Positions 13,169-62,915 of a DNA stretch of 64,000 nucleotides are shown piece by piece. Origin of the DNA: Prevotella sp. (GTDB taxonomy: Bacteria > Bacteroidota > Bacteroidia > Bacteroidales > Bacteroidaceae). Both the position numbers and the translations under genes were made by a program. The notes under the pieces are model-generated. The model was not told where the DNA came from, made no database searches, and was given only the letters and a program-made list of their open reading frames with translations. Position 1 is the first letter of the stretch; every line of letters starts with the position of its first letter. The stretch lies in NCBI GenBank assembly GCA_017561825.1, contig JAFZBK010000056.1, positions 62,001 to 126,000 on the forward strand. Reading direction: 5' to 3'.

Positions 13169-13200
13169 TCGAAATATCGAAATAACGTAATATCGAAATA
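13169..13200 (+). repeat. Four tandem octamers abutting the sufC start
   Basis: TCGAAATA, TCGAAATA, ACGTAATA, TCGAAATA occupy 13169-13200 exactly and end at the base before the sufC ATG. They fill the whole gap after the sufB stop. Confidence 0.75.
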
Positions 13201-13971
13201 ATGCTTGAAGTAAAGAATTTACACGCTAAGATCGGCGAGAAAGAGATATTGAAAGGTATTGACCTCGTGATCAATGATGGGGAAACGCATGCCATCATGG
13301 GACCGAACGGTTCAGGTAAGTCAACCCTGAGTGCTGTGCTGGTAGGAAACCCGTTGTATGAGGTGACCGAAGGTGAGGCGTGGTTCAACGGCAAGAACCT
13401 GCTGGAGATGAAACCCGAGGACCGAGCCCACGAGGGTTTGTTCCTTTCGTTCCAGTATCCCGTGGAGATCCCTGGCGTGTCGATGACGAATTTCATGCGT
13501 GCCGCCATCAACGAGAAACGCAAGTACCAGGGGTTGGAACCCATGAATGCGGCTGATTTCCTGAAGCTGATGCGTGAGAAGCGTAAGATTGTGGAACTCG
13601 ATTCCAAACTGGCCAACAGAAGTGTGAACGAGGGCTTCAGCGGTGGTGAGAAGAAACGCAACGAGATCTTCCAGATGGCTATGCTGGAGCCGAAACTCTC
13701 GATACTTGACGAGACGGATTCGGGTCTTGACGTGGATGCCATGCGTATCGTAGCTGAGGGTGTGAACAAGCTTCAGACACCTGAGACTTCTTGCATCGTT
13801 ATTACCCACTACGACCGTCTGCTGGAGATGATTCGTCCGCAGTATGTCCACGTGTTGTACCAAGGAAAGATTGTAAAGACGGGTGGTCCTGAGCTGGCTA
13901 AGCAGATTCAGGAGCATGGGTATGATTGGTTGAGACCCACCTCCAACCCCTCCCTGAATGGAGGGGAGTAG
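13201..13971 (+). CDS. sufC: SufC ATPase of the Suf complex
   Basis: 256 aa. ABC-type ATPase with Walker A GPNGSGKST (about 35-43), a Q-loop region (LSFQYPVEIPGVS), signature FSGGEKKRNEI (about 146-156), Walker B LSILDETDSGLD with the SufC-typical Glu-Thr after the Asp, and a switch His in VITHYDRLL. It powers the SufB-SufD scaffold. The last ten or so residues (TSNPSLNGGE) and the TAG stop are encoded by the left arm of the second GC-rich palindromic element, so the natural C-terminus has been replaced or extended. The stop lies upstream of the preferred sufD start at 13994. Confidence 0.96.
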   Translation: MLEVKNLHAKIGEKEILKGIDLVINDGETHAIMGPNGSGKSTLSAVLVGNPLYEVTEGEAWFNGKNLLEMKPEDRAHEGLFLSFQYPVEIPGVSMTNFMRAAINEKRKYQGLEPMNAADFLKLMREKRKIVELDSKLANRSVNEGFSGGEKKRNEIFQMAMLEPKLSILDETDSGLDVDAMRIVAEGVNKLQTPETSCIVITHYDRLLEMIRPQYVHVLYQGKIVKTGGPELAKQIQEHGYDWLRPTSNPSLNGGE

Positions 13972-14063
13972 TTACCTCTTGAATAGAAAAGACATGGACA
14001 GTAAAAAACAGACAGCAAGTGTATCTACTCCCCTCCCTCACAGGGAGGGGATGGGGGAGAGTC
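13934..14063. repeat. Composite GC-rich palindromic element, copy 2 (sufC/sufD junction)
   Basis: Left arm 13934-13973 (GACCCACCTCCAACCCCTCC at its start) and right arm 14023-14063 are inverted copies. The left arm encodes the SufC C-terminus and its stop; the right arm encodes [12 protein letters not shown] in the SufD N-terminus. Arm sequence, size (130 versus 134 bp) and part of the core (TTACYTCTTxGAATAG-like) match copy 1. Confidence 0.8.
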
Positions 14064-15376
14064 TCCAATACATAGATCTCTATACGCAGGCACGGCAAGT
14101 GATCTTTGATCATGCTGCCGAGTCGATGAATACTGTTCGTGATAAAGCATTTGAGGACTTCAAGGCTCAGGGCTTCCCGTCAAGAAAGGTGGAGCGTTAT
14201 AAATATACGGATATACCGAAACTCTTTGAGCCTGACTATGGCGTGAACCTCAATCGTCTTGAGATTCCCGTGGATCCTTATCAGGCTTTCCGCTGCGATG
14301 TTCCCAACCTCTCCACCTGGCTGTATTTCGTGGTGAATGATGCGTTCTACTCCAAGGCATTGCCCAAGAGTCATTTGCCCGAAGGTGTAATCATTGGCTC
14401 TTTGAAGGAGTATGCCACTACCGCCTATTACCACCAGCTGGCTTCGAAGGATCATGATGCGGTCACAAACCTGAATACCATGTTGGCTCAGGACGGTCTT
14501 TATGTTTATGTACCTAAGGGAGTGGTGCTGGATCACGCTGTTCAGATCATCAATATCCTTCGCTCGGATGTGGATATGATGGTGAACCGTCGTGTGCTTA
14601 TCATCCTCGAAGAAGGGGCGGAAGCGAAGTTCCTCTTCTGCGATCATGCAGCAGATGACAACCATTTCCTGACTACACAGGTCATTGAGGCTTATGTGGG
14701 CGAGAATGCTTCCTTGGATCTCTATTGTTTGGAAGAGACGCATTCCAAGAGTGTTCGTGTGAGCAATGTCTATATCGAGCAGCAGGCAAACAGTCGGGTG
14801 AACCACAACGTGATCACACTCCATAACGGTATTACCCGTAACAAGCTAGACCTCACCTTCTCTGGCGAGGGGGCTGAGTGTGACTGCTACGGTTGTGTGA
14901 TTGCTGACAAGAACCAGCATGTGGATAACAACACGCTAATCACCCACAAGGTGCCACATTGCACCTCGAATGAACTCTATAAATATGTGCTCAACGGACA
15001 GTCAACGGGTGCCTTTGCAGGTAAGGTGCTGGTGGAGCATGGGGCACAGAAGACCAGTTCGCAGATGACCAATCAGAACCTGACGGCTACCAAGGAGGCA
15101 CGGATGTACACCCAGCCCATGCTGGAGATCTATGCTGATGATGTGAAGTGTGCCCATGGCTCCACGGTGGGTCAGCTCAACGATGCGGCTCTCTTCTATA
15201 TGCGTCAGCGCGGTATCTCCTTGGAGGAGGCCACCATCCTCTTGCAGAAAGCCTTCATCAATGAGGTGATCGACAAGATGAAACTCGAACCCCTTCGCGA
15301 CCGTCTTCGCTATCTCGTGGAGAAGCGTTTCAGGGGTGAACTCAACAAGTGCGTAGGGTGTAAACTCTGTAACTAA
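13994..15376 (+). CDS. sufD: Fe-S cluster assembly protein SufD
   Basis: 460 aa from the ATG at 13994 (MDSKKQTASV). An ATG at 13958 is in frame, but it lies inside the SufC stop region and the palindrome, so it is less likely. SufD partners SufB and SufC. Visible family features are FPSRKVERYKYTDIPKLF, the SufB/D beta-helix core, and the conserved tail AALFYMRQRGISLEEATILLQKAFINEVI followed by CVGCKLCN. Residues about 11-22 ([12 protein letters not shown]) come from the palindromic element. The gap to the next gene is 15 bp, so the Kelch-AraC gene may be co-transcribed. Confidence 0.95.
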   Translation: MDSKKQTASVSTPLPHREGMGESLQYIDLYTQARQVIFDHAAESMNTVRDKAFEDFKAQGFPSRKVERYKYTDIPKLFEPDYGVNLNRLEIPVDPYQAFRCDVPNLSTWLYFVVNDAFYSKALPKSHLPEGVIIGSLKEYATTAYYHQLASKDHDAVTNLNTMLAQDGLYVYVPKGVVLDHAVQIINILRSDVDMMVNRRVLIILEEGAEAKFLFCDHAADDNHFLTTQVIEAYVGENASLDLYCLEETHSKSVRVSNVYIEQQANSRVNHNVITLHNGITRNKLDLTFSGEGAECDCYGCVIADKNQHVDNNTLITHKVPHCTSNELYKYVLNGQSTGAFAGKVLVEHGAQKTSSQMTNQNLTATKEARMYTQPMLEIYADDVKCAHGSTVGQLNDAALFYMRQRGISLEEATILLQKAFINEVIDKMKLEPLRDRLRYLVEKRFRGELNKCVGCKLCN

Positions 15377-15391
15377 TATAATCAGCTATTT

Positions 15392-17086: not shown

Positions 17087-17113
17087 GTCATAAAGACCAT
17101 ATCCTTTTGAGAG

Positions 17114-17151
17114 AATCGACTTACGAAACATGTTTTGTAAGTCGATTTTGT
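17114..17151 (+). terminator. Strong terminator after the Kelch-AraC gene
   Basis: AATCGACTTAC (17114-17124) pairs with GTAAGTCGATT (17137-17147) over a GAAACATGTTTT loop that can itself pair; TTTGTT follows. It separates the suf/regulator transcription unit from the Asp-box protein gene. The remaining bases to 17221 hold no clear consensus promoter, only TTTG at 17165 and TATCTTAG at 17184 with short spacing. Confidence 0.85.
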
Positions 17152-17221
17152 TAAGATGTAAGTCTTTGTAACTTTTTTTTCCCTATCTTAGCCGCAAATT
17201 AAATTAATAAATGATTAGCTT

Positions 17222-26198: not shown

Positions 26199-26225
26199 CA
26201 GCCGAAAAGAGATTCGGGGAAGGAT

Positions 26226-26346
26226 TCGAGGAAGGAGGAAGGAGGAACGAGGAACGAGATTTGTTTCAAGTACAAGTGGTTTTGTATATGAATACTGTAT
26301 CTCAGTTACATTTCTCGTTCCTCGTTCCTCCTTCCTCGTTCCTCGA
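26226..26346. repeat. Palindromic element with inverted heptamer arms (sufS leader)
   Basis: Arm 26226-26259 consists of GAGGAAG/GAGGAAC heptamers; arm 26313-26346 is CTCGTTC/CTCCTTC heptamers. The two are complementary at 33 of 34 positions, around a 53-nt core. At the inner edge of the right arm the box TATCTCAGTTACATTTCTC (26298-26316) recurs in other elements of the window. No gene lies in 26125-26399. Confidence 0.9.
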
Positions 26347-26399
26347 AAATAACAAATGATATAAAATTCGCCTAATTAGTCAAATTCGTAGCGAACAAA

Positions 26400-27641
26400 A
26401 TGAATACAAAGGTGCGTGAAGACTTCCCGATCCTATCAAGGGAGGTATATGGAAAGCCGTTAGTATATCTGGATAACGCGGCCACCACACAGAAACCGCT
26501 CTGTGTGCTGGATGCCATGCGTGATGAGTATCTCAATGTGAATGCCAATGTACACAGGGGTGTTCACTACTTGTCGCAGCAGGCTACCGACCTCCATGAG
26601 GCAGCCCGTGAGCAAGTGCGCCAGTTTATCCATGCCGCCAAGACCGAAGAGATTATCTTCACCCGTGGAACCACCGAGGCCATCAACTTGGTGGCAAGTG
26701 CGTTCTGCGAGTCGCAGATGAAGGAAGGCGATGAGGTGCTGGTCACAGAGATGGAACATCATTCCAATATTGTACCCTGGCAGTTGCAGGCCATGAAACG
26801 GGGCATCGTGGTAAAACACCTGCCCATCACCGATGACGGTCAGCTCAATATCTCACTTCTCACCTCTCACCTCTCACCTCTCACCAAGCTTATCAGCTTG
26901 GCTCACGTTAGCAACGTCTTAGGCACGGTGAATCCCGTGAAGGAGATCATCCAGATGGCTCATGAGCGTGGTATCCCTGTATTGGTGGATGGTGCCCAAA
27001 GTGCTCCGCATTTCCAAGTGGATGTGCAGGACATGGATTGTGATTTCTTCGCCTTCAGCGGTCATAAGATGTACGGCCCCACAGGTATAGGTGTTCTCTA
27101 TGGCAAAGAGGAGTGGCTGGAGAAACTGCCGCCGTATCAGGGTGGGGGAGAGATGATTGACAAGGTGACGTGGGAGAAGACAACCTTCGAACGACTGCCT
27201 TTTAAGTTCGAGGCGGGCACCCCTGATTTCGTGGCTACCCACGGACTGGCCAAAGCCATCGAGTATATCCATTCCCTCGGCTTTGAGGCCATCCAACAGC
27301 ATGAGCAGGAACTCACCCGCTATTGCATGGAACAACTCCAAACCATCCCCGATATCCATATTTATGGGCTCCAACTAAATTGTCAATTGCCAATTGTCAA
27401 TTGTCAATTAGCAAGGGACGCCGTGGTTAGTTTCAATGTCGGCTCCATCCATCATCTCGACATGGGTACCTTACTCGACCGTTTAGGCATTGCCGTCCGT
27501 ACAGGTCATCACTGTGCACAACCGCTGATGGATCGTTTGGGCATCACAGGCACTGTCCGTGCTTCCTTCGCCCTTTACAATACGAAGGAAGAAATAGATG
27601 CACTTGTGACTGGCATCCGTCGTGTGGCCCAGATGTTCTAA
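26400..27641 (+). CDS. sufS: Cysteine desulfurase SufS
   Basis: 413 aa. Class-V aminotransferase fold; it delivers persulfide sulfur from cysteine to the SufBCD scaffold. The family start is seen in VREDFPILSREVYGKPLVYLDNAATTQKP. PLP-binding Lys223 lies in SGHKMYGPTG, and the catalytic Cys372 in RTGHHCAQP. Two places depart from homologues as I remember them: SLLTSHLSPLTKL (about 151-163) and LQLNCQLPIVNCQLA (about 325-340). Both are encoded exactly by 7-bp tandem arrays. The gene has its own promoter and is 11 kb away from sufBCD, to which it is usually adjacent in Bacteroidota. It ends 4 bp into the convergent small gene. Confidence 0.96.
   Translation: MNTKVREDFPILSREVYGKPLVYLDNAATTQKPLCVLDAMRDEYLNVNANVHRGVHYLSQQATDLHEAAREQVRQFIHAAKTEEIIFTRGTTEAINLVASAFCESQMKEGDEVLVTEMEHHSNIVPWQLQAMKRGIVVKHLPITDDGQLNISLLTSHLSPLTKLISLAHVSNVLGTVNPVKEIIQMAHERGIPVLVDGAQSAPHFQVDVQDMDCDFFAFSGHKMYGPTGIGVLYGKEEWLEKLPPYQGGGEMIDKVTWEKTTFERLPFKFEAGTPDFVATHGLAKAIEYIHSLGFEAIQQHEQELTRYCMEQLQTIPDIHIYGLQLNCQLPIVNCQLARDAVVSFNVGSIHHLDMGTLLDRLGIAVRTGHHCAQPLMDRLGITGTVRASFALYNTKEEIDALVTGIRRVAQMF
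26852..26885. repeat. Heptamer array inside sufS (CTCACCT)
   Basis: CTCACTT, CTCACCT, CTCACCT, CTCACCT, CTCACC in tandem, within codons for LLTSHLSPLT. Preceded by ATATCTC, similar to the box at other arrays. Confidence 0.9.
27379..27409. repeat. Heptamer array inside sufS (ATTGTCA)
   Basis: ATTGTCA, ATTGCCA, ATTGTCA, ATTGTCA, ATT in tandem, encoding NCQLPIVNCQL. Because 7 is not a multiple of 3, the peptide repeats only every three units. Confidence 0.9.
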
Positions 27642-27928: not shown

Positions 27929-27944
27929 ATTCTTTTTGTTTTTA

Positions 27945-28007
27945 GAAGCAAGAGGCAAGAAGCAAGAGGTAAGAGATGATAATCTCGTTCCCTCGTTCTC
28001 TCGTTTT
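27945..28007. repeat. Head-to-head heptamer arrays between two divergent genes
   Basis: GAAGCAA, GAGGCAA, GAAGCAA, GAGGTAA (27945-27972) meet CTCGTTC-type units (27984-28007) of the opposite strand sense, with only about 11 bp between. They lie directly upstream of the small minus-strand gene and 90 bp before rnhB. A -7-like CAAAATTA/TAATTTTG (27021-relative 28021-28028) on the minus strand could serve the small gene. Confidence 0.75.
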
Positions 28008-28780: not shown

Positions 28781-28887
28781 GGAGTGTGGAGGGTGGAGTG
28801 AGATATGTTTAGAGTTCATGGCCAATGGAATAAAATTCTGTATCTCATTACTATTCTCCCTCCTCCCTTCTCCTTCCTCTCTCCTCG
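28781..28887. repeat. Palindromic element with heptamer arms before the WYL regulator
   Basis: Left array GGAGTGT, GGAGGGT, GGAGTGA (28781-28801); right array CTCCCTC, CTCCCTT, CTCCTTC, CTCTCTC (28856-28883) and CTCG. The box TATCTCATTACTATTCTC at 28841-28858 adjoins the right array. It fills most of the 128-bp gap between rnhB and the regulator and ends 8 bp before the chosen start codon. Confidence 0.85.
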
Positions 28888-28894
28888 TAAAAAT

Positions 28895-29794: not shown

Positions 29795-29818
29795 TTTTAA
29801 AAAGCCGTTTCAATTTGC

Positions 29819-29884
29819 GTATAGGCGACAGATCGTTTGCCTATAGGCGCACGATCGTTTGGGTATAGGCAAACGATGGTAAAG
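29819..29884. repeat. Three tandem 22-bp repeats
   Basis: Units at 29819-29840, 29841-29862 and 29863-29884 share KTATAGGCRMACGATSGTWW. Adjacent units read as the partial palindrome ATCGTTTGCCTATAGGC. They start 25 bp after the regulator's stop. The whole interval 29795-30353 contains no gene. Confidence 0.85.
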
Positions 29885-30299: not shown

Positions 30300-30330
30300 T
30301 TTGTATTGCTCTCAACTTTTCGTACCTTTG
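30300..30330 (+). promoter_or_regulatory. Promoter of the first M6 protease gene
   Basis: TTTG (30300-30303), 19 bp, TACCTTTG (30323-30330), 24 bp before the ATG at 30354. It resembles the two upstream 49-bp repeats in layout (TTTTG..TTGCTC..TCGTACCT). Confidence 0.8.
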
Positions 30331-30353
30331 TACCGAGTTCTAAAATCAGTATT

Positions 30354-32471
30354 ATGAAAAAGCATTTTTTCATCATTCTTTTATGGGTGTGTTCAATGAC
30401 TGCGTGGGCTGTTCCTGCTCAGCGCGGATTGTGGCGAGTGATTCATTTGTCAGATGGTTCTACGGTAAGGGTGGAGCTGCGGGGTGACGAGTATAAGCAT
30501 TGGTGGGAGGATTCCCTGGGATGTAGATATTTGCGAGGAGGGAGGAGTGTGGAGAGAGGAGGGAGAAATGAAACTAAGATATGGGAATTGGTAAAAGAGA
30601 ATAAGGAATTGGTATCTAGAACTAAAAGAAAAGGAAGCAGAGCACGAAAGTATTCTCGCTCCACACTCCACACTCCTCCCTCCTCGACTCCCTCCTCCTT
30701 CAAGGGTCTCATCATCTTAGCTGAGTTTGCTGACCGTTCCTTTCAGGAGGCACATGCGACGGAGCTTTATCGGCGCATAGCGAACGAAGAGGGGTTTGTG
30801 CATGAACTGGGCTTTCATGGCAGTGTTCACGACTATTTCAAGGACCAGAGTGAAGGTCGGTTCCTGCTGGATTTCGATGTGGTAGGACCGGTCAGGCTCT
30901 CCATGAATTATGCCTATTATGGTGAGAATGATGCTGACGGACAGGACCTGCGAGCAGGAGAGATGGTGGCAGAGGCTTGTAAGCTGGCAGCGAAAGAGGT
31001 GGATTATGCCGATTACGACTGGGACGGTGATAGTGAAGTGGAGCAGGTAGTAGTGCTCTTTGCCGGACAAGGGGAACACTGCTGTGAAGATGCAGCAACC
31101 ATCTGGCCTCATGAGTTCGCTTTGGAAGCAGGCGACTATGGTCATACGCTGAAAATCGACGGGGTAACCATCTCCACCTACGCCTGCTGCTCAGAGCTGG
31201 GTCTTGATGGCCACATCGACGGCATCGGCACGCTCTGTCATGAGTTCTCTCACTGCTTGGGCATTCCCGACATGTACGATACGGAGGACAATGGCTGCTT
31301 CGGCATGTCACGTTGGGACATCATGGACTACGGTTGTTACAACGGTAACGGCTTTACGCCCTGCGGCTATACCAGTTATGAACGGATGATCTGCGGATGG
31401 AAGCAACCTATAATCCTCACCAACGAAAGGGAGGTGAGTAACATGCAGCCTTTGTCGGATAACGGAAACAGCTATATTATATACAATAGGAACAGTCCTT
31501 ACGAATACTACCTGTTGGAAAACCGTCAGCAGGTAGGGTGGGACAGGGCCTTGCCGGGCAGCGGACTGCTTGTGCTGCATGTGGATGAGAATGAGGAGGC
31601 GTGGATGGAGAACAGGGTGAACACCGATCCCGACCATCCCCGTTGTACCATCTTCCATGCCGATAACGATCTCTCGCAGCTATGTGGCGATCCTTATCCT
31701 TATAACGGCAACGACAGTCTGACGGTCTTCTCCACCCCCGCCGCCACCTTGTATAACAAGAGCGAAAGGGGTGATCTATACATGCCCATGGCCATCACGG
31801 ACATCACCCAGCAGACAAACGGTAATGTGTCTTTTCATTTCCGTCCTACCATAGGAATCCTGACAGATCCTGCTGACGGAGTAGTCTTCTATGAACAGTT
31901 CAGCGGTTGCAACGGGAAAGGAGGAAACGACGGCAGATGGGGAGGCAGCATCGCCTTGGCGCAGTTTGTTCCTGATCATGATGGGTGGGAGAGTGCGAAG
32001 TGCTATGGAGCCAACCAATGCGCGAAGTTCGGTACCACCTCCGCTCATGGCATGGCCGTCACCCCAGCGATTTACCTGAACGGCGAATATGAACTCTCCT
32101 TCCTGGCTGCCCCTTGGAACGATGAAGAGAACTTCATGTGGCTGGATGTGGAAAGCGGAACGGCCACCGTGGCGGATCATCTCTTCGACAGGATGAAGAA
32201 CCAGCAGTGGAATGAACATCATACCACGCTTACTGGTCATGGCTGGGTAAAGCTGCTGTTCTACGGAAACAACAAACGCTTCTTCCTCGACGAGGTGATG
32301 ATCAGGAAGAAGGGAGGGATAGCAACGGGCGGAGCGAAGCTCCTAAAGGATAAAGGACAAATGATAAATGGTAAAGGATATGCGGGGTGGTACACGATAG
32401 ACGGGAGGAAGCTCAATGGAATGCCCATGAAGGGTGTGTATATCATAGATGGTCGTAAGGTACTGAGATAA
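30354..32471 (+). CDS. Exported M6-family metalloprotease, paralogue 1
   Basis: 705 aa from the ATG at 30354. Signal peptide MKKHFFIILLWVCSMTAWAV. A short N-terminal domain (GSTVRVELRGDEYKHWWEDS) is interrupted by about 55 residues encoded by a heptamer-armed element (about 60-115). The M6 catalytic domain follows, with zinc motif HEFSHCLGIPDMYD near residue 296 and the downstream Met turn in SRWDIMDYG. An MAM/concanavalin-like C-terminal domain (about 505-660, VFYEQFSGCNGKGGNDGRWG) and a sorting-like tail (GWYTIDGRKLN...KGVYIIDGRKV) end it. It is likely secreted or surface-bound and degrades extracellular protein. A paralogue on the opposite strand at 48.3-50.1 kb mirrors it. Confidence 0.9.
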   Translation: MKKHFFIILLWVCSMTAWAVPAQRGLWRVIHLSDGSTVRVELRGDEYKHWWEDSLGCRYLRGGRSVERGGRNETKIWELVKENKELVSRTKRKGSRARKYSRSTLHTPPSSTPSSFKGLIILAEFADRSFQEAHATELYRRIANEEGFVHELGFHGSVHDYFKDQSEGRFLLDFDVVGPVRLSMNYAYYGENDADGQDLRAGEMVAEACKLAAKEVDYADYDWDGDSEVEQVVVLFAGQGEHCCEDAATIWPHEFALEAGDYGHTLKIDGVTISTYACCSELGLDGHIDGIGTLCHEFSHCLGIPDMYDTEDNGCFGMSRWDIMDYGCYNGNGFTPCGYTSYERMICGWKQPIILTNEREVSNMQPLSDNGNSYIIYNRNSPYEYYLLENRQQVGWDRALPGSGLLVLHVDENEEAWMENRVNTDPDHPRCTIFHADNDLSQLCGDPYPYNGNDSLTVFSTPAATLYNKSERGDLYMPMAITDITQQTNGNVSFHFRPTIGILTDPADGVVFYEQFSGCNGKGGNDGRWGGSIALAQFVPDHDGWESAKCYGANQCAKFGTTSAHGMAVTPAIYLNGEYELSFLAAPWNDEENFMWLDVESGTATVADHLFDRMKNQQWNEHHTTLTGHGWVKLLFYGNNKRFFLDEVMIRKKGGIATGGAKLLKDKGQMINGKGYAGWYTIDGRKLNGMPMKGVYIIDGRKVLR
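30534..30697. repeat. Heptamer-armed element inside the first M6 protease gene
   Basis: Left arm from 30534 (CGAGGAGGGAGGAGTGTGGA) is complementary without mismatch over 21 bp to 30666-30686, and the pairing extends inward with a few mismatches. The box at the left inner edge (minus strand, 30563-30581) reads TATCTTAGTTTCATTTCTC. The core encodes WELVKENKELVSRTKRKGSR. The same core, about 93% identical over some 94 bp, occurs in the second M6 gene. Confidence 0.85.
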
Positions 32472-33804: not shown

Positions 33805-33814
33805 AATCAATTCT

Positions 33815-33832
33815 ATTATCAATTATCAATTA
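33815..33832. repeat. Heptamer array in the susD/lipoprotein gap of operon 1
   Basis: ATTATCA, ATTATCA, ATTA on plus, i.e. TAATTGATAATTGATAAT in coding orientation. It sits between the susD stop (33833) and the next start (33804). Operon 2 carries the same unit at the same place. Confidence 0.8.
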
Positions 33833-43390: not shown

Positions 43391-43393
43391 TCA

Positions 43394-43428
43394 ATTGATA
43401 ATTGATAATTGATAATTGATAATTGAAA
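43394..43428. repeat. Heptamer array in the susD/lipoprotein gap of operon 2
   Basis: ATTGATA four times, then ATTGAAA (43394-43428), between the susD stop and the next start. Same unit, orientation and place as in operon 1. Confidence 0.9.
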
Positions 43429-43441
43429 ATTTATATAGATT

Positions 43442-48342: not shown

Positions 48343-50133
48343 CTATGGCTGGTTTACCAGTATCTTCTTCCCGTCAATGATGTAAATACCTTTGGGAAGA
48401 ACTTGGGGATCAGTTCCCATGAGAACACCTTGCAGACTATAGATAGGAGTCTGTGAGGTGTTTTTTATGACTTGTCGGATTCCTGATGGTTCGCCTTCCC
48501 TTTGGTAGAACTGGAAGGATATCGTGTTGTCGAGTTTCTTCTTGATATGTTTGATGGCCACCTGCAGTTGCTTGTTGCCCATCCGGTCTTCATGGAAGAG
48601 ATCAGTGGCAGGACTGGAGGTGGTGGTAAGGCTGTCGTTGAAGAGGTAAGGGTAGGCATCGCCTGCCGTTCCAAACTTCACCTTACCGTTGTCAGCTTGC
48701 ACCACGGAGCAACGTTCGTGATCGTTAGTGTATTCCTTGTCGTATTGATCATAGTAGGTGCTGTAGGAGTTCACAACATTCCACAACCACACATACGGGT
48801 TGTAGTCGATGTGCGTGATGAGTAGTCCTGAGCTTGGCAGACTCTTGTCCCATCCTGTCTTCTGACGGTTCTCCAGCATGTAATATTCATCGGGGTGGGC
48901 ACTGTTATATATAATATAGGTTTCGCCACCCTCACTGATAGCCTGCATGCTGGAAATGGTTGTATCCTTATCAAGGACGATAGGCTGTTGCCAGCCGCAG
49001 AACATCTTCTCGTAAGCCGTGAAGCCCGCTGGTTGGAAGCCGTCACCGTTATACGAACCAAGATCCATCACATCCCAGTATCCCATACCGTAGTTCTTCA
49101 GGTCAGTGTCGTACATGTCGGGCAACCCTAAGCAATGTCCGAACTCATGACAGAGGGTGCCGATGCCGTCAATCCGTGAGCCGCTACTGAGCTCAGGTGA
49201 GCAAGCATAAGTGTTGATGCGCACCTTGTCAAGACGTAGCGTCTTGCCGTAATCTGTTTCTACCAGTTCCCATTCATGGGGCCAGATGGTATTCTTGCCC
49301 CCGCCGTTGGCCTCGCCTTGTCCTGCATAGATTACCACCACCTGTTCTACATAGCCGTCATGGTTCCAGTCGTAGTCAGAGAAATCAACTTCGTCATCTA
49401 CTAACTTACAAGCCTCAATGATCATCTCGTCGGGGTGGGCATCATAGTCGTCTGGTCCTACATTTTTTCCGTAGTACTCATAGTCGTTGCTCACGGTTAC
49501 GGGTCCTATGACATCAAATGTCAGGTCGAGCATCCCACCACTTTGGTCGCGGAAATAGTCGCTTACACAACCTTTAAATCCTCTCTCGCCGAATCCTCTT
49601 TCGTTTGCTATCTGGTCGAACAAATCACGGTCGTTCTCGTCTCTGAACTGCTTGTTGGCAAACTCCACGAGGATGATGATGCCCTTGCGGGGACCAATGT
49701 AGGGGGAAGAGTGGAGGGCGGAGAGGTTCGAAGAGAGTGGAGGGAGGAGGGTGGAGGGAGAATACTTTTGTGCTCTGCTTCCTTTTCTTTTGGTTCTAGA
49801 TAGCAATTTCTTATTCTCTTTTACCAATTCCCATACCTCAGTATCATTTCTCTCTCCACTCTCCACACTCCTCTCTCCTCTAATCTGATACTTATTCCCT
49901 AAAGAGTCCTCCCACCAATGACAGCGTTCGTCACCACGTAGCTCCACCCTTACCTGACTGCCATCAGACGAAGTGATGGTTTGCCATTGTCCGCGTCGGG
50001 CAGGAATGGCAAGCATGCTGGCACAACACAGGGTTGCGAGGATGAGATATAGTGATTTCCTTGTGTCAGCCCATCCTTGGATGACGGTCATAAGAAATAG
50101 AAGGAGTAATCCGACTTGTTTTGGTTGCCTCAT
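48343..50133 (-). CDS. Exported M6-family metalloprotease, paralogue 2
   Basis: 596 aa from the ATG at 50133; a start at 50178 is excluded because the promoter overlaps it. Two hydrophobic segments at the N-terminus (about 5-20 and 28-47) suggest a long signal region or a later start. The prodomain has SQVRVELRGDERCHWWEDSL. It is interrupted by the element-encoded stretch that includes RSVESGERND, WELVKENKKLLSRTKRKGSR and a Ser/Pro/Leu-rich segment. The M6 zinc motif HEFGHCLGLPDMYD is near residue 330. There is no MAM-like domain, so it is shorter than paralogue 1. The tail is IYSLQGVLMGTDPQVLPKGI and continues YIIDGKK, sorting-like. The two paralogues point toward each other around the SusCD operons. 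Confidence 0.9.
   Translation of the reverse strand: MRQPKQVGLLLLFLMTVIQGWADTRKSLYLILATLCCASMLAIPARRGQWQTITSSDGSQVRVELRGDERCHWWEDSLGNKYQIRGERSVESGERNDTEVWELVKENKKLLSRTKRKGSRAQKYSPSTLLPPLSSNLSALHSSPYIGPRKGIIILVEFANKQFRDENDRDLFDQIANERGFGERGFKGCVSDYFRDQSGGMLDLTFDVIGPVTVSNDYEYYGKNVGPDDYDAHPDEMIIEACKLVDDEVDFSDYDWNHDGYVEQVVVIYAGQGEANGGGKNTIWPHEWELVETDYGKTLRLDKVRINTYACSPELSSGSRIDGIGTLCHEFGHCLGLPDMYDTDLKNYGMGYWDVMDLGSYNGDGFQPAGFTAYEKMFCGWQQPIVLDKDTTISSMQAISEGGETYIIYNSAHPDEYYMLENRQKTGWDKSLPSSGLLITHIDYNPYVWLWNVVNSYSTYYDQYDKEYTNDHERCSVVQADNGKVKFGTAGDAYPYLFNDSLTTTSSPATDLFHEDRMGNKQLQVAIKHIKKKLDNTISFQFYQREGEPSGIRQVIKNTSQTPIYSLQGVLMGTDPQVLPKGIYIIDGKKILVNQP
49701..49880. repeat. Heptamer-armed element inside the second M6 protease gene
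   Basis: Plus-strand left arm 49701-49762 (GTGGAGG, GGAGGGA types), right arm 49850-49880 (CTCTCCA, CTCTCCA, CACTCCT, CTCTCCT). The box TACCTCAGTATCATTTCTC is at 49834-49852. The core is about 93% identical to that in paralogue 1, in the same reading frame and place. Confidence 0.85.
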
Positions 50134-50155
50134 ATCTTGGTCGTAAATTCTTGTG

Positions 50156-50186
50156 CAAAAATAGGAAAATCCCATCATATTTCAAA
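50156..50186 (-). promoter_or_regulatory. Promoter of the second M6 protease gene
   Basis: On minus: TTTG (50183-50186), 19 bp, TATTTTTG (50156-50163). Transcription would start near 50149, only about 15 nt before the ATG at 50133, which fixes the start choice. Confidence 0.75.
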
Positions 50187-50310: not shown

Positions 50311-51459
50311 ATGAAAAAGATTATCATAGGGATTCTCATGGTAGTGTCCGTGCAGGTTCATGCCCAATGGACGGGTACATGGGCGGCGGCAGCAGAGTTC
50401 ACCGGTCCTGGAGATATGCCAGCCAGTACCCTTGCCAACCGCTCTCTTCGTGAAATCATCCATGTCTCCATTGGAGGTAGTGAGTTGCGTTTGAAGTTGT
50501 CAAACGAGTTCAGTAAGGAACCTGTGGAGATCCGTTCCCTTTACATCGCTGATGCGCTGGAAGGATGGGAGATACAGACCAAGACTGCAAAGTTTGTCAC
50601 TTTTGGCGGAAAGAAGAATGTAACCATTGAGCCTGGCAAGGCACTATATTCGGATGTGATCAAGTATTCCCTGAAGCCATTGCAGCGGTTGTCGATAACG
50701 ATCAACTACGGTGAAGGTGTTCCCGTGAATGCCACCTCTCATCGTGGCTCCCGCACCACCTCGTATATCATCCCCGGCATTTCCAAGCCCAAGAGCAACT
50801 TTGCCGAGGGCGAGAAAGTGGATCATTGGTACAATATCGCAGCACTTGAAGTGAAAGGAGATGCTCCTTGCATAGCTGTGTTAGGTAACTCAATTACCGA
50901 TGGTCGTGGCAGTACCACTAATAAGCAGAACCGCTGGCCAGACTTCCTCGCAGAAGCCTTGAACGGTCAGGTGGGTGTACTGAATTTAGGTATTGGCGGC
51001 AACAGTGTTGTTGAGGGTGGCTTGAGTGAGCCCGCTTCAAAACGCTTCGATCGTGACATCCTTCAGCAGAGTGGTGTAAATACGTTGATTATCTTCCAAG
51101 GTGTGAACGATATCGGTAACAGTCGTCATGTGGAGCAGACCACCAACCGACTGGTTAATGCGTATGAACGTTTCATCAAGGAGGCGAAGGAGAAAGGGAT
51201 GAAGGTCTTTCTGGCCACGATCACGCCTTTCAAGGGCAATGGCTACTATTCCTTCTATCATGAGGCAGCCCGCCAGTATGTCAACAACTGGATTAGGAAA
51301 TGCGAGAAAGTCGATGGAATCATTGATTTTGACGAACTCGTACGAGATCCTAACGACCCCGAACAGCTGTTGAAAAAGTATTCGGAGGACGGTCTTCATC
51401 TGACTCCCGCAGGCTATGAAGCCATGGGGAATTATGCAGCCTTGTTAATTGAGGAATGA
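50311..51459 (+). CDS. Exported SGNH/GDSL-family esterase
   Basis: 382 aa with signal peptide (1-19, ending VHAQ). An N-terminal beta domain (about 20-180, WTGTWAAAAEFTGPGDMPAS, HRGSRTTSYIIPG) precedes the SGNH hydrolase domain. Block I is VLGNSITDGRGS with the nucleophile Ser near 194; the Gly block is LNLGIGGNSV, the Asn block is FQGVNDIGNS, and the catalytic Asp/His pair is in DGLHLTPAGYEAMG near 360. It probably removes acetyl or other ester groups from plant polysaccharides. It is the first of three genes with a GPH transporter and GH43, and has a -7-like TAAATTTG at 50269-50276. Confidence 0.9.
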   Translation: MKKIIIGILMVVSVQVHAQWTGTWAAAAEFTGPGDMPASTLANRSLREIIHVSIGGSELRLKLSNEFSKEPVEIRSLYIADALEGWEIQTKTAKFVTFGGKKNVTIEPGKALYSDVIKYSLKPLQRLSITINYGEGVPVNATSHRGSRTTSYIIPGISKPKSNFAEGEKVDHWYNIAALEVKGDAPCIAVLGNSITDGRGSTTNKQNRWPDFLAEALNGQVGVLNLGIGGNSVVEGGLSEPASKRFDRDILQQSGVNTLIIFQGVNDIGNSRHVEQTTNRLVNAYERFIKEAKEKGMKVFLATITPFKGNGYYSFYHEAARQYVNNWIRKCEKVDGIIDFDELVRDPNDPEQLLKKYSEDGLHLTPAGYEAMGNYAALLIEE

Positions 51460-51512
51460 GGAATGTGGAATGAGATAATTGAACAAAGTTAAATAATTAA
51501 TAAACTATTTTT

Positions 51513-55537: not shown

Positions 55538-55695
55538 CAATCCGTCATCGCGCAGGGATGCGCTAACGAGAGATTCCCATGTGGTGCTTTCGTGACAAGG
55601 TGCCGGAGGGTCCGCAAGGATCCGCAAGGGCAGCAGAGATTGTGTAAGACCCAGCTTGAGAAAATTAAAGATTAAACATTAAACATTAAAAAAAG
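55538..55695 (+). promoter_or_regulatory. Leader region of rpsT, with heptamer array
   Basis: 158 bp without a gene between tRNA-Glu and rpsT. The first part is GC-rich with self-pairing potential (CGCGCAGGGATGCGC) and the tandem GTCCGCAAGGATCCGCAAGG around 55609-55629. The last part (55664-55691) is ATTAAAG, ATTAAAC, ATTAAAC, ATTAAAA heptamers ending just before the ATG. A ribosomal-protein leader structure is possible but not shown. Confidence 0.55.
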
Positions 55696-55950: not shown

Positions 55951-55971
55951 TACATAGGATCCAAGGAATTG

Positions 55972-56109: not shown

Positions 56110-56135
56110 CATACCATATAAGCAAATAACTAGAA

Positions 56136-58103: not shown

Positions 58104-58108
58104 ATACC

Positions 58109-58144
58109 AAGACCGCAGATGCCTCGCGCACTGCGGTCTTTTTT
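58109..58144 (+). terminator. Terminator of gyrB
   Basis: AAGACCGCA (58109-58117) pairs with TGCGGTCTT (58132-58140), then TTTTG. Four bases later the heptamer-armed element begins. Confidence 0.9.
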
Positions 58145-58147
58145 GAG

Positions 58148-58241
58148 GTGAGAGGCAAGAGAATAGATTCTGAGATGATGGCAATAAGAAATAGGTTTCG
58201 TATGCAAGCAGGAATGCTATTCTCTTGCTTCTTGCCTCTTT
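58148..58241. repeat. Heptamer-armed element at the 5' end of the GH95 gene
   Basis: The left arm GAGAGGCAAGAGAATA (58149-58164) is complementary to TATTCTCTTGC...CTCTT at 58219-58241 once one 7-bp unit (TTCTTGC) is looped out. The box (minus strand, 58159-58177) reads CATCTCAGAATCTATTCTC. The right arm encodes the hydrophobic signal-peptide core. Confidence 0.8.
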
Positions 58242-60601
58242 TTGCTGGCGCTCAGGAGCAGTGTGCCATGCGGTTGTGGTATGATCAGCCCGCACACTTC
58301 TTCGAGGAGTCGTTGCCCATTGGCAATGGAAAGATGGGAGCCCTGCTCTATGGTGGGGTGGATACAGATTCGCTGTACCTGAATGATATCACGTTGTGGA
58401 CAGGACAGCCTGTTGACCGCAACGAGGATGAGGGTGCCTCGAAGTGGGTGCCTGTGATTCGTGAGGCGCTGTTCAACGAGGATTATGCCAAGGCCGACTC
58501 CCTTCAACGTCATCTGCAGGGGCACGACTCGCAGTTCTACCAGCCCTTGGGGATGATCTATATAAAGGATAATAACCCGGGAACTGTAAGCGGGTATTAT
58601 CGTTCATTGAGCCTGGATAGTGCGCTTTCTACGGTTACTTATTTTCGTAACGGGGTGCAATATACCAGAGAATATCTGGCCTCCAATCCCGATAAGGTGA
58701 TTGCCGTACATCTCACTGCCAATCATAGCGCATCTATTAACTGTAGTATCTCCTTATCTTCACAGGTGCCGCATCGAATTAAGGCGAGCAACAAACAACT
58801 CACCATGTTAGGACATGCCATTGGTGATGAGAAGAACAGCATTCATTTCTGTTCCATCCTCCGTGTGGATCATCAAGGGGGAGCAGTAACGGTGACTGAT
58901 TCCACCTTGCTGCTTCGTGATGTGGATGAGGCAACCATCTATCTGGTGAACGAGACGAGCTTCAACGGTTTCGACAAACATCCTGTCAAGGAAGGTGCTG
59001 ACTATCTCAACAAAGCCACGGATGAGGCTTGGCATTTGGTGAACTGTACGTGGGAGGAGATTCGTGAACGACATATCAATGATTATCGACAATTCTTCTC
59101 ACGGGTGGAGCTAGCATTTGATGGAGCTAAGTATGATAGTCAGCGGACTACCGCACAGCAGTTAAAGGACTATACCGACAGAAAGGAAAAGAACCCATAT
59201 CTGGAAACACTGTATTTCCAATATGGTCGTTACCTCCTCATCAGCTGCTCACGTACCCCAGGCGTTCCTGCAAACCTGCAGGGATTATGGGCACCGCAAA
59301 AATGGTCGCCTTGGCGAGGGAACTACACAGTGAACATCAACCTCGAAGAGAACTACTGGCCCGCCTTTGTTGCCAATCTTGCTGAGATGGCAGCACCATT
59401 AGATGACTTCATCCAAGCGCTCTCCACAAACGGAGCTTTCACGGCAAAGAACTACTATGGGATTCATGAGGGATGGTGCAGCAGTCATAACTCTGATATC
59501 TGGGCCATGACGAATCCTGTAGGTGCCAAACATGGTGTTCCAATGTGGGCGAACTGGAACTTAGGTGGCGCATGGCTGGTGAATACCTTATGGGAGAGAT
59601 ACTTGTTTACACAGGATGAGAGCTATCTGAGAAACACTGCTTATCCGTTGATGAAGGGTGCAGCGGAGTTCTGTATGGCCTGGCTCATAGAGAATCCGAA
59701 GAAACCTGGTGAGCTGATTACAGCTCCCAGCACATCTCCTGAGAATGAGTATATCACTGATAAAGGGTATCGTGGCACGACATGCTATGGAGGCACGGCA
59801 GATTTGGCCATCATCCGCGAACTGCTCACCAATACCATCAGTGCCCGAAACATCCTCCATCCGCATCCAACAGAAGAGGAGATCCATACACCTTATTATA
59901 TTGGTCTCGCTCAGAGTCTCCAACATCTGCATCCTTACACCATCGGACACATGGGGGATCTCAATGAGTGGTATTACGACTGGGATGACACGGATTTCAA
60001 GCACCGTCATCAGAGTCATCTGATTGGTCTCTACCCTGGGAACCATATCTCTCACCTCTCACCTCAAACCTCTCACCTCTTAAAAGCTTGTGAACGCTCT
60101 TTAGAGCTCAAGGGTGATGAGACCACAGGATGGAGCACGGGATGGCGCATTAATCTGTGGGCACGACTGAAGAATGGTGAGAAGGCGTATCAGATCTATC
60201 GTAAGCTGCTTACTGCTGTGGCACCTGAGCATGATAACACCCCCAACTACAGTCATGGTGGCGGTACCTATCCGAACCTCTTTGACGCGCATCCTCCCTT
60301 CCAGATCGATGGCAACTTCGGCGGAACGGCTGGTGTATGCGAGATGTTGGTACAGAGCACATCCGACCATCGTATTGAACTCCTTCCTGCCACACCGTTG
60401 GCATGGTCGTCAGGAAAGGTGAAAGGTATCTGTGCCCGTGGCGGTTATGTGGTGGATATGGTATGGAAGGAGGGTCGTGTGGTACAGGCTACCATCAAGA
60501 ACCTGACTTCCCAGAAACGCAGTGTGACACTTGTGGCCAATGGAAAAGAGCAGCAAGTGAAGATAAAAGGTAATAGTATTAAGATGATCCGTTTAAAATA
60601 G
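58175..60601 (+). CDS. GH95 family alpha-L-fucosidase/galactosidase, exported
   Basis: 808 aa from the ATG at 58175. The signal peptide (about 1-30, ending FAGAQE) is encoded largely by a repeat element. The GH95 N-terminal domain has MRLWYDQPAHFFEESLPIGN, GKMGALLYGGVDTDSLYLND and TLWTGQP. The (alpha/alpha)6 catalytic barrel follows, with PANLQGLWAPQKWSPWRGNY, TVNINLEENYWPAFVANLAE, PSTSPENEYI and HMGDLNEWYYDWDDTDFKHR. A C-terminal beta domain has IDGNFGGTAGVCEMLVQS and LPATPLAWSSGKVKGICARG. GH95 enzymes act on alpha-1,2-linked L-fucose or L-galactose on xyloglucan or host glycans. A CTCACCT heptamer array (60051-60080) encodes ISHLSPQTSHLL inside the catalytic region. An AraC gene follows 6 bp later. 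Confidence 0.92.
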   Translation: MMAIRNRFRMQAGMLFSCFLPLFAGAQEQCAMRLWYDQPAHFFEESLPIGNGKMGALLYGGVDTDSLYLNDITLWTGQPVDRNEDEGASKWVPVIREALFNEDYAKADSLQRHLQGHDSQFYQPLGMIYIKDNNPGTVSGYYRSLSLDSALSTVTYFRNGVQYTREYLASNPDKVIAVHLTANHSASINCSISLSSQVPHRIKASNKQLTMLGHAIGDEKNSIHFCSILRVDHQGGAVTVTDSTLLLRDVDEATIYLVNETSFNGFDKHPVKEGADYLNKATDEAWHLVNCTWEEIRERHINDYRQFFSRVELAFDGAKYDSQRTTAQQLKDYTDRKEKNPYLETLYFQYGRYLLISCSRTPGVPANLQGLWAPQKWSPWRGNYTVNINLEENYWPAFVANLAEMAAPLDDFIQALSTNGAFTAKNYYGIHEGWCSSHNSDIWAMTNPVGAKHGVPMWANWNLGGAWLVNTLWERYLFTQDESYLRNTAYPLMKGAAEFCMAWLIENPKKPGELITAPSTSPENEYITDKGYRGTTCYGGTADLAIIRELLTNTISARNILHPHPTEEEIHTPYYIGLAQSLQHLHPYTIGHMGDLNEWYYDWDDTDFKHRHQSHLIGLYPGNHISHLSPQTSHLLKACERSLELKGDETTGWSTGWRINLWARLKNGEKAYQIYRKLLTAVAPEHDNTPNYSHGGGTYPNLFDAHPPFQIDGNFGGTAGVCEMLVQSTSDHRIELLPATPLAWSSGKVKGICARGGYVVDMVWKEGRVVQATIKNLTSQKRSVTLVANGKEQQVKIKGNSIKMIRLK
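60051..60080. repeat. Heptamer array inside the GH95 gene
   Basis: CTCACCT, CTCACCT, CAAACCT, CTCACCT, CT in frame after ATATCT. Same unit as in sufS and in the DUF3109 gene. Confidence 0.88.
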
Positions 60602-60607
60602 AAGAAG

Positions 60608-61480: not shown

Positions 61481-61489
61481 CAAGTAATT

Positions 61490-62140
61490 TTACAGAGCAT
61501 TCTCAGCAATGTCACATAGCTCCTTATACCATTCTTCACCAAAACGACGGATAAGGGGATCACGCAAGAAACGATAGACGGGGATCTTCAGTTCCCGTCC
61601 TTTTTTTCTCGCACCTTCACAGATCTTCCAGCGGTTGTAGTTCAATCCAACCAGTCCGTTGGAGAACTGTTTTACACGGATAGGGTAGAGGGCACAACTG
61701 ATGGGCTTAACAAAGAGGTGAGAGGTGAGGGGTGAGAGGTGAGAATTGGCTGATGCCTTGTTTCTGGCGGCTTTCTCCAACATACAAAGCCAACAGGGAT
61801 TTGTACTCCCCTCGCCCTTTGGAGAGGGGAAGGGGGTGAGGCTCGCAAATACACATTCCTTGCCATTCACAATACTTGTCACCAAATCTCCTTCCTGATC
61901 CGTATAGGCCACGCCCTGCTTGTCGATAACTGCCTGTGCGGAGGCTGACAGGTCTTGCCACACCTCATCCAACATTCCTTCAATCTCCATCACCTCATCC
62001 AAGGTAACAGGTGCTCCTGCATCACCTTCCACGCAGCATATTCCATGACAATCAGTGAGGTCACAGCAGAAGTACTCAGTGAAGATGTCACTGGAAACAA
62101 GTACGTCACCAATTTGTATGATGGGAGGAAGGTTGTTCAA
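61490..62140 (-). CDS. DUF3109 family cysteine-rich protein with two in-frame insertions
   Basis: 216 aa. No ATG is available near the family start (IIQIGDVLVSSDIFTEYFCC), so translation probably starts at TTG 62140, whose first base is the first base of the heptamer array. Family features: CCDLTDCHGICCVEGDAGAP, AYTDQEGDLVTSIVNGKECV, KPISCALYPIRVKQFSNGLV and GLNYNRWKICEGA. The Cys pattern suggests a metal or Fe-S site; the function is not known to me. Between KECVFA and VKPISC, two foreign segments are present: SLTPFPSPKGEGST (GC-rich palindrome) and NSHLSPLTSHLF (heptamer array). They leave the Cys residues CWLCMLEKA between them. Confidence 0.88.
   Translation of the reverse strand: MNNLPPIIQIGDVLVSSDIFTEYFCCDLTDCHGICCVEGDAGAPVTLDEVMEIEGMLDEVWQDLSASAQAVIDKQGVAYTDQEGDLVTSIVNGKECVFASLTPFPSPKGEGSTNPCWLCMLEKAARNKASANSHLSPLTSHLFVKPISCALYPIRVKQFSNGLVGLNYNRWKICEGARKKGRELKIPVYRFLRDPLIRRFGEEWYKELCDIAENAL
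61715..61742. repeat. Heptamer array inside the DUF3109 gene
   Basis: GAGGTGA, GAGGTGA, GGGGTGA, GAGGTGA on plus; in coding sense CTCACCT units encoding SHLSPLTSHL. Confidence 0.9.
61804..61844. repeat. GC-rich palindrome arm inside the DUF3109 gene
   Basis: TACTCCCCTCGCCCTTTGGA start, continuing GAGGGGAAGGGGGTGAGGCTC. It aligns with the right arms at 11683 and 14023. The coding strand gives LTPFPSPKGEGST, like the [10 protein letters not shown] of SufB and SufD. Confidence 0.78.
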
Positions 62141-62209
62141 TTGAAAATTGAGAATTGAGAATTGAAAATTAAGAATTAAGAATTGAAAATTAAGAATTAA
62201 GAGGTGAGA
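62140..62209. repeat. Ten heptamers filling the ung/DUF3109 gap
   Basis: ATTGAAA, ATTGAGA, ATTGAGA, ATTGAAA, ATTAAGA, ATTAAGA, ATTGAAA, ATTAAGA, ATTAAGA, GGTGAGA, ending one base before the ung stop codon. The array is the entire intergenic space. Confidence 0.92.
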
Positions 62210-62875
62210 TTACCATTGTATGGGGGTGATGCCGTTTTGCTCCAAGTAGGCATTGCACTGCGAGAAGTGATGGTTACCGAACCATCCACCACGGTTAGCA
62301 GATAGTGGCGAGGGGTGAACGGATTCGAGTACCAGGTTCTTCTGCTTGTCAATCATATAGGCCTTTCCTCTGGCATAACCGCCCCAGAGCAGATAGACAA
62401 GGTGCTCACGTTCCGTGGCCAAGGCCTTGATGGCCGCATCCGTGAAGGTCTGCCATCCTAAACGTGCATGACTGTTTGCCATGTGTGCTCTCACCGTCAG
62501 CGTGGCATTGAGCAGCAGTACCCCTTGTTCTGCCCAACGAGTAAGATTTCCGCTTAAAGGGATGGGTGTTCCTATATCGTCTTGTATCTCCTTGAAGATG
62601 TTCTGCAGCGAGGGTGGGAACATCACGCCGTCGTTTACGGAGAAGCTCAAGCCGTGAGCCTGTCCTGGCTCATGATAGGGATCCTGACCGATGATCACCA
62701 CCTTTACCTTGTCGAAAGGACAGAGGTTGAAAGCATTGAAGATCAGTCGTCCCGGTGGGTAGCAGGTGGTTGTCTGGTATTCCTGTCTTACCCACTGGGT
62801 CAGCTGCGAGAAATACGGCTTCTCAAACTCATCTTGCAGATGCCGCTTCCACGAATCTTCAATCTGTACGTTCAT
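62210..62875 (-). CDS. ung: Uracil-DNA glycosylase
   Basis: 221 aa, family length. Water-activating motif VVIIGQDPYHEPGQAHGLSF with Asp65, the Asn motif GVLLLNATLTVRAHMANSH, and the minor-groove loop VHPSPLSANRGGWFG near 187. It removes uracil from DNA as the first step in base excision repair. It is flanked on both sides by pure heptamer arrays that make up the intergenic spaces. Confidence 0.97.
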   Translation of the reverse strand: MNVQIEDSWKRHLQDEFEKPYFSQLTQWVRQEYQTTTCYPPGRLIFNAFNLCPFDKVKVVIIGQDPYHEPGQAHGLSFSVNDGVMFPPSLQNIFKEIQDDIGTPIPLSGNLTRWAEQGVLLLNATLTVRAHMANSHARLGWQTFTDAAIKALATEREHLVYLLWGGYARGKAYMIDKQKNLVLESVHPSPLSANRGGWFGNHHFSQCNAYLEQNGITPIQW

Positions 62876-62880
62876 GATGT

Positions 62881-62915
62881 CTTGCCTCTTGCCTCTTGCT
62901 TCTTGCCTCTTGCCT
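62881..62915. repeat. Five heptamers filling the gap upstream of ung
   Basis: CTTGCCT, CTTGCCT, CTTGCTT, CTTGCCT, CTTGCCT occupy 62881-62915 exactly, ending at the base before the stop codon of the next minus-strand gene. Confidence 0.92.

Follow-up and report, generated by a model that had tools for sequence, protein, structure and literature searches.

Heterocystous cyanobacteria carry short tandemly repeated repetitive sequences, which have a period of 7 and are dispersed in the genome. Here we analyze arrays that share both traits in a different phylum, namely in a 64,000-nucleotide (nt) stretch of a Prevotella sp. genome (GenBank assembly GCA_017561825.1, contig JAFZBK010000056.1, positions 62,001 to 126,000), hereafter the window. 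Its genome is a draft of 69 contigs and 88% complete. The original prediction, made from the letters of the window alone, described arrays with a strict 7-bp period that have this period but no sequence in common, and ascribed them to a length-measuring mechanism rather than to copies of one element.

Mrazek et al. reported an excess of heptanucleotide repeats in bacteria in 2007 and put forward 7 nt as a possible contact length of a polymerase (as cited in PMC4679880 and PMC4692102). In the sections of these papers at hand, prokaryotic heptanucleotide long simple-sequence repeats (SSRs) are 7-nt tandem units beyond chance with a patchy phylogenetic distribution, for which slippage has been proposed, and the Prevotella arrays resemble them in all of this. 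They differ in being mostly imperfect and about 4–9 units long, in an apparent rewriting of units at conserved sites, and in their presence inside conserved genes and as the stems of a hairpin element. The excerpted PMC4692102 also mentions heptanucleotides of Calothrix and treats the G-rich heptamers GGGAATC of Xanthomonas and GGGGA(C/T)T of Nostoc, which were studied for G-quadruplexes. Most of these have the same neighbouring genes in two species and vary extensively in length and sequence, and inverted pairs occur, all of which recalls our arrays; as described there each system has one unit type, whereas Prevotella has dozens of linked units. The TAACTGA repeats of Beggiatoaceae, some Cyanobacteria and five Bacteroidetes are likewise heptamer arrays immediately 5' of start codons, but their unit is fixed and related heptamers are seldom repeated, according to the available part of PMC4679880, while in Prevotella the unit varies. 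TAACTGA is absent from the 18 commonest unit classes of the window's genome and of its sister species. Within the same phylum, the BrickBuilt miniature inverted-repeat transposable element (MITE) of Porphyromonas gingivalis is also a small repeated element with both tandem repeats and inverted-repeat ends; in the excerpt of PMC4596501 its internal repeat measures 23 nt, whereas the arms of the Prevotella hairpin are themselves 7-nt repeats that vary between copies. In the open-licence literature we found no description of heptamer arrays in the Prevotella group, and PMC12699852 makes no mention of heptanucleotide, heptamer or 7 bp.

We propose that the Prevotella arrays are heptanucleotide SSRs which arise, grow and change sequence through slippage and template switching on a 7-nt register, with units exchanged among loci, a reading to which we assign a probability of roughly 0.55. 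An array was scored wherever at least 17 of 21 bases were identical to the base 7 positions downstream, and other lags were scored likewise. In the window, lag 7 yields 17 arrays, lag 14 yields 8 and lag 21 yields 3, with 0–1 for each of the remaining lags between 4 and 13, while 100 local Markov-1 resamples, which keep local first-order statistics, gave no lag-7 array in any case. Tandem Repeats Finder (TRF) agrees with the lag test here. The predicted dispersed family thus exists, and its 7-nt tandem units run longer than chance allows. The window is denser than the remainder of its contig, where 3 arrays occur in the other 68 kb.

The signal extends to samples from further genomes, which together with contigs and loci are cited by our handles (G, C and L numbers). 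A 400-kb sample of the window's own genome, taken around AATTGA-type matches at 20 loci and hence biased upward, has 87 arrays at lag 7 and 7 at lag 8, and outside the multiples of 7 no lag exceeds the 16 found at lag 22. A 328-kb syntenic stretch of a sister species (G118), picked without regard to arrays, has 48 at lag 7 versus 9, 8 and 15 at lags 8, 9 and 22. The original prediction had expected a lag-7 excess in complete genomes of the group. On the genome samples used here it was borne out within the genus, where twenty 20-kb pieces from 20 genomes, some from contigs with known matches, gave 44 lag-7 arrays, while lag 8 gave 18 and lag 9 gave 12, with 7 of the 20 genomes lacking any lag-7 array in the piece sampled. 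Other families of the order showed no such excess, with 2 arrays in 250 kb from 20 genomes, several of the pieces being short. The pattern AATTGANAATTGANAATTGA has 172 matches (overlaps counted) in the window's genome, 0 to 123 in 35 genus-mates, and is present in 3 of 24 other-family genomes. One-contig genomes hold 1 array per 80 kb (G141), 2 per 40 kb (G016 and G069) and 0 per 40 kb (G024). The arrays are therefore patchy: plentiful in the window's genome and some genus-mates, with few or none found in others. Farther afield, long AATTGAN arrays occur, among the matches listed, in Bacteroidales, Cyanobacteria, Planctomycetota, Acidobacteria, Desulfobacteraceae and others. Once arrays with at least four AATTGA were dropped, 116 public-genome loci contained 189 further lag-7 arrays versus 36 at lag 8, with at least one in 77 loci. 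Period 7 is not private to the Prevotella group, in line with the heptanucleotide-repeat literature.

The arrays and related features of the window are as follows; a strand is given where one was assigned.

13169–13200, plus strand: period-8 array of TCGAAATA, found by TRF; in G118 the same gap contains an AAAATTG array.
26225–26347: hairpin element with purine arm 26225–26264 (GAGGAAC/GAGGAAG), core at about 26256–26317 and pyrimidine arm 26308–26347; the arms are 93% complementary over 40 nt and their inner ends overlap the core.
26847–26890, plus strand: CTCACCT array in loop 1 of a SufS-like gene (26400–27641), of the same length as in many array-free homologues.
27375–27415, plus strand: CAATTGT array in loop 2 of the same gene, mostly CAACTGT in G118.
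27944–28005: GAAGCAA/GAGGCAA array of period 7 (27944–27977) facing a CTCGTTCC array of period 8 (27984–28005).
28781–28888: hairpin element with arms GGAGTGT/GGAGGGT and CTCCCTC and a divergent core (GATATG and CTGTATCTCATTACTATTCTC); the hairpin at this place in G118 has different arms.
30534–30687: inverted heptamer arms GAGGAGG and CTCACTC within an M6-peptidase-like gene (30306–32471).
32343–32375, plus strand: TAAAGGA array near the end of that open reading frame (ORF), by the lag test.
33811–33842, minus strand: AATTGAT-type array lying between two minus-strand genes, with AATTGA on the sense strand.
43388–43436, plus strand: AATTGAT array spanning from the stop codon of a SusD-like gene to the next start, by the lag test.
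49721–49882: inverted heptamer arms GGAGGGA and CTCTCTC in a second M6-peptidase-like gene (48343–50178, minus strand).
51447–51477, plus strand: GAGGAAT array overlapping the end of a GDSL-lipase ORF; G118 has no array there.
55659–55694, plus strand: ATTAAAC array immediately 5' of the start of ribosomal protein S20, with ATTAAAA/ATTAAAG in G118 and G203.
58145–58238: inverted heptamer-like arms GAGGTGAGAGGCAAGAG and CTCTTGCTTCTTGCCTC; G203 has a long GAAGCAA array there.
60049–60080, plus strand: CTCACCT array within a GH95-like gene, by the lag test.
61712–61748, minus strand: array in a DUF3109 gene (sense CTCACCT), with differing units in G203, G118 and G405.
62136–62202, plus strand: AATTGAG/AATTAAG array that occupies the whole gap from the DUF3109 gene to the UDG-family gene, its AATTGA strand antisense to both.
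62877–62919, plus strand: CTTGCCT array filling the gap between the UDG and HerA genes, by the lag test.

Fourteen of the 15 numbered places in the original prediction have period 7; 12 pass the 17/21 test, the one at 28856 appears through TRF and lag 14 only, and the one at 28781 is three units found by eye. The arms announced for both M6 genes are real (30534/30653 and 49721/49850), and the arrays at 32343–32375 and 51447–51477 had been missed. The word strict does not hold: the places 27984–28005 and 13169–13200 have period 8, as do the 7 lag-8 arrays of the own-genome sample. Period-8 arrays that share the TTCAATT core of the period-7 family were also seen at L010 7472, L011 13623 and L022 1997. 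As for the secondary maximum at lag 22, it comprises 18 arrays of several kinds in 532 kb scanned, among which are sets of two to three operator-like palindromes, phased at 22 bp, of the TTCCCAACGTGGGAA and GATCGTTTGCCTATAGGCGCAC families. These lie at 29814–29877 in the window, at L009 6729–6801, L010 18528–18600, L012 11202–11271, L018 15108–15178, L020 6475–6538 and L024 2818–2882. A repeat some 70 nt long (GGAGCAGCGAGTGCCAATATGCTCGCATGATTGGCCGAGTCGTGAC) lies within or beside heptamer arrays at L015 13398 and L027 17102, and again in the G118 stretch opposite C2 20854 of the window's genome, as if arrays were landing places. Rfam at the gathering threshold returned two tRNAs and nothing else.

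The claim that the arrays share a period but not a sequence stands insofar as the units do change; they are related nonetheless and are not independent words. In the own-genome sample, to which the window was added for unit counts and which is enriched for AATTGA, 104 arrays fall into 41 unit classes, while 104 A+T-matched genomic 7-mers form 88 classes on average (minimum 81 in 500 draws). Every one of the 41 classes lies one base from another, as compared to a mean of 26.5 and a maximum of 35 in 200 control draws. The 48 arrays of G118 fall into 20 classes where 46 are expected, the 20 arrays of the window genome's contig C11 into 13 where 20 are expected, and the 43 arrays left in the own-genome sample without its AATT arrays into 26 where 42 are expected. 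One-step neighbours number 17/20, 9/13 and 25/26 in these three sets, with control maxima of 17, 8 and 20, so that the G118 neighbour count taken by itself sits at the edge of its control. Preferences differ among species: across 18 genomes with at least five matches each, AATTGA matches stand to CTCACC matches in ratios between 123:0 and 0:14 (chi-square 393). The units thus form a network of one-base steps whose composition is species-dependent. Within arrays, neighbouring units are slightly more alike than all pairs (0.887 versus 0.869, standard error of the difference 0.004, 104 arrays), as measured on trimmed arrays; without trimming, array ends exaggerate the decay with distance (0.80 to 0.56).

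What happens to these units over time can be followed at orthologous sites. The product of 26400–27641 is an aminotransferase class V protein by Pfam, which we take to be SufS, presumably an important enzyme. Its loop 1 measures 45 nt in all eight species with the highest lag-7 identity (0.74, 0.71, 0.71, 0.55, 0.55, 0.53, 0.53 and 0.47), where units read TCTCACC in the window, TCTCATC in G118 and CTATCAA in G025, with graded imperfect forms in the five others. The other 22 of the 30 species compared have identities of at most 0.37; many of their loops are also 45 nt long and some are longer. Loop 2 carries arrays of differing units in several species and palindromic inserts in others, and its mean over the 30 species stands out at lag 7 (0.317 versus at most 0.243 at other lags). 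It also provides the sole clear in-gene length step, of exactly 21 nt or three units, between L149 and L153. In four control stretches of the same gene no species reaches 0.6. As a separate observation, loop 2 of L150 and L167 holds short in-frame palindromes of the AAAGGGAC..GTCCC/TTCC type, where other species have heptamer arrays.

The DUF3109 site, recovered in 8 of 12 loci, has four units in four species: CTCACCT in the window, CTCAATT/CTCCATT in G203, NTCAATT in G118 and TTCACTC in G405; the remaining four (G287, G238, G421 and G014) lack the array, and their loop is short. On contig C2, the array of a gap within an operon reads TTTCAAT in the window's genome versus TTTGAAC in G118, and in the S20 leader an ATTAAAN array is maintained in three species (the window's, G118 and G203). 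Other sites come and go. The UDG–HerA gap is short and array-free in five relatives (G203, G238, G287, G421 and G014), and several further C2 sites have changed without a matching array in the relative. In summary, at several sites the array has persisted for longer than its unit: species differ in most or all copies of the unit while the register is kept.

Some arrays make up the stems of a hairpin that recurs at dispersed places around a conserved core, so the statement that they are not copies of one element fails for this part of the family. In the hairpin element, purine-rich arrays face pyrimidine-rich ones around the core TATGnTTCAAGTACAAGTGGTTTTGTATATGAATACTnTATCTCAGTACTATTCTC (23 copies), which is about 56 nt long. 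By BLAST the core occurs 4 times in the window's genome, 27 times in G118 and not at all in 10 other genomes; a profile search of 120 genomes found 7 and 33 copies in the former two, one strong match in G080, and weak partial matches in G131 and G066 (E 0.003 and 0.009). Arm units vary between copies and include GGAGTG(T/A), GGAGGAA, GAGGAAC, GAAGCAA and the period-8 GGTGGCGC. Still, each arm tends to match its partner: complementarity is 0.78 within copies versus 0.65 across copies, a value that none of 5000 permutations reaches (30 copies), although copies with ill-matched arms, down to 0.23, are also present. For this test 33 loci yielded 30 distinct copies; two loci repeated others, and L275, which holds two copies, yielded the one already seen in L267, so that one G118 copy went unused. 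The set was defined by the core, since threshold-based purine/pyrimidine pairing splits arms and gave 6 pairs only.

With terminal inverted repeats (93% complementary arms at 26225–26347, matched arms in most of the 30 copies) the hairpin resembles a MITE, and REPIN/RAYT elements are dispersed short hairpins as well. It differs from the latter in that its arms are tandem arrays of variable unit, and no match to a RAYT-type Y1 transposase is listed for its main host: G118, the genome richest in hairpins, is not among the Y1_Tnp (PF01797) matches listed, which cover 73 of 120 genomes, the window's genome has one weak match (E 6e-5), and array-rich G027 has none. Nor do the array-rich genomes point to a retroelement, as PF00078 reverse transcriptase has no match in G007, G018, G022, G027 and G033, a set that includes drafts; several of the array-rich genomes checked for enzymes are drafts of 79–94% completeness. 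One reverse transcriptase each was found in the window's genome (G000:C50:575-1201) and in G118 (L205 7332-8621, C24), the latter matching RT_UG26 of PADLOC (E 1e-161). Both enzymes were considered as a needed engine and set aside, with two-unit pattern counts in 36 genomes with versus without them giving p values of 0.31 and 0.35. Judged from gene content, reverse transcriptases and Y1 transposases look dispensable for the arrays.

Placement adds a further regularity. A crude ORF caller puts 32 of 107 own arrays in ORFs, while 89% of the sequence is coding. Under a strict test that demands the stop codon of a long ORF before the array and the ATG of a long ORF after it, 20 of 51 own AT arrays are kept, with AATTGA as the sense strand in 18 and reversed in 2 (p 0.0004); G118 gives 6 to 0 (from 9 AT arrays) and other genus loci 3 to 1 (from 11). 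Most of these gap-filling arrays extend to within a few bases of both stop and start. The cruder count of 26 to 4 in the window's genome and 6 to 0 in G118 is open to ORF-caller bias, and TTCAATT as sense within ORFs has no value as evidence because arrays in ORFs must be free of stop codons.

How could such a pattern arise? On our proposal, replication or repair would slip and switch template in a 7-nt register and thereby create, lengthen and rewrite arrays. Rewriting might proceed by transient misalignment on an adjoining unit, whereby a base is copied and the strands realign with length kept, or alternatively by conversion in register by another array; in hairpins, misalignment on the opposite arm would rewrite the arm, which fits arms that match although units differ between copies. 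Length-preserving unit change in a conserved gene is hard to achieve through single 7-nt gains and losses because these shift the frame. Units may moreover travel between loci of a genome through ectopic template switching, which we infer because species have their own few favoured units and new arrays are unlike the host sequence. Selection would then act as a filter that leaves arrays in intergenic gaps, in tolerant protein loops, and with AATTGA as sense in stop-to-start gaps. The register, with a period of 7 and rarely 8, is the constant quantity. A site that is kept while its unit changes and its register holds is the trace expected of a length-measuring copying process; to this extent the predicted mechanism survives, with its conserved period and its units swapped at the same sites, if not in the form in which it was stated.

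That the units instead came with a family of mobile elements, in which a transposase or reverse transcriptase moves preformed arrays or armed hairpins that decay afterwards, appears unlikely to us, even though the dispersed hairpin with its conserved core (33 profile matches in G118, 7 in the window's genome) and the sharing of units within a genome would suit it. New arrays also look unlike their sites: at five sites picked for a clean array-free side (six comparisons), random windows matched the array unit as well as that side did (0.27–0.99 of them at least as well). The enzyme searches above speak against such an engine, both in the five array-rich genomes, G027 included, several of them drafts, and in G118 with its place outside the Y1_Tnp matches listed. 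AATT arrays have no common flanking motif, the most frequent flanking 8-mer being present in 4 of 52 at most, and in-register unit change at old sites would be left unexplained. The same missing seed counts against classical local slippage, by which each array would stem from a chance 7-nt duplication in situ without exchange between loci, and which we hold to be somewhat less probable again. It has been proposed for long SSRs (Mrazek 2007, as cited in the accessible part of PMC4679880), and both the graded intermediates in SufS loop 1 and the slight likeness of adjoining units agree with it. Yet it predicts units as varied as the local sequence, where we find few, related and species-specific ones. 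Retention of the arrays as binding sites for a factor, protein or RNA, whose footprint is 7 nt, for example in regulating translation start, would explain the 18 of 20 sense orientations and recalls the TAACTGA repeats that precede start codons in Beggiatoaceae (excerpts of PMC4679880). We consider it improbable, given that orthologous arrays before the same gene carry different units, that some lie in ORFs, that many relatives have few or no matches, and that stop codons and A-richness alone would lead to the observed orientation. An artefact of metagenome assembly, finally, could be suspected from contigs C40, C29 and C13, which each show an array match in roughly their first 110 bases; it is refuted by orthologous arrays that recur in independent assemblies, and one-contig G141, G016 and G069 hold a few arrays too, which leaves it a negligible chance.

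Slippage and template switching in register must in turn be weighed against several observations. SufS loop 1, averaged over the 30 species, has the same mean (0.336) at lag 9 as at lag 7. The UDG–HerA gap of G118 is a sequence of similar length and merely an array-like remnant; at 60049 G118 and G203 share array-free sequence, alike in both and 27 nt longer than the array, an outcome not expected from simple slippage; and 62136, like 51447, has no matching array in G118. AATTGA and CTCACC counts correlate weakly and positively over 36 genomes (Spearman 0.38), and part of the variation between species therefore reflects overall array load and not unit choice. Differences between two arrays share a unit column, but this test is partly circular, in part because both sequences are arrays. 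The seed comparison covers five sites and diverged relatives, no enzyme was found, and the period-8 arrays with a TTCAATT core make 7 a preference, not a rule. Present data do not separate rewriting in place from copying from elsewhere.

A more far-reaching and doubtful extension is that the arrays of a genome form a self-templating population, in which any array or arm may rewrite another in a 7-nt register set by a lineage-specific replication or repair factor. As the idea of a 7-nt polymerase contact is already published, only the host group and the dynamics would be new. New as far as seen are the network of units, their in-register turnover in conserved genes, the interchangeable hairpin with matched arms, and the stop-to-start orientation in the Prevotella group.

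The heptanucleotide excess has been in print since 2007, and the literature as excerpted offers a proposed cause and no test of it. This genus pairs array-rich species with others in which few arrays or none were found and has conserved sites for stepwise comparison of units, which together with the matched-arm hairpin make copying in steps of seven testable. The arrays also show how repeats may enter conserved proteins with the frame intact. If they were self-templating, sites would persist while the unit drifts as a genome-wide sequence cloud at constant length, and conserved genes would suffer no frameshift since length is unchanged.

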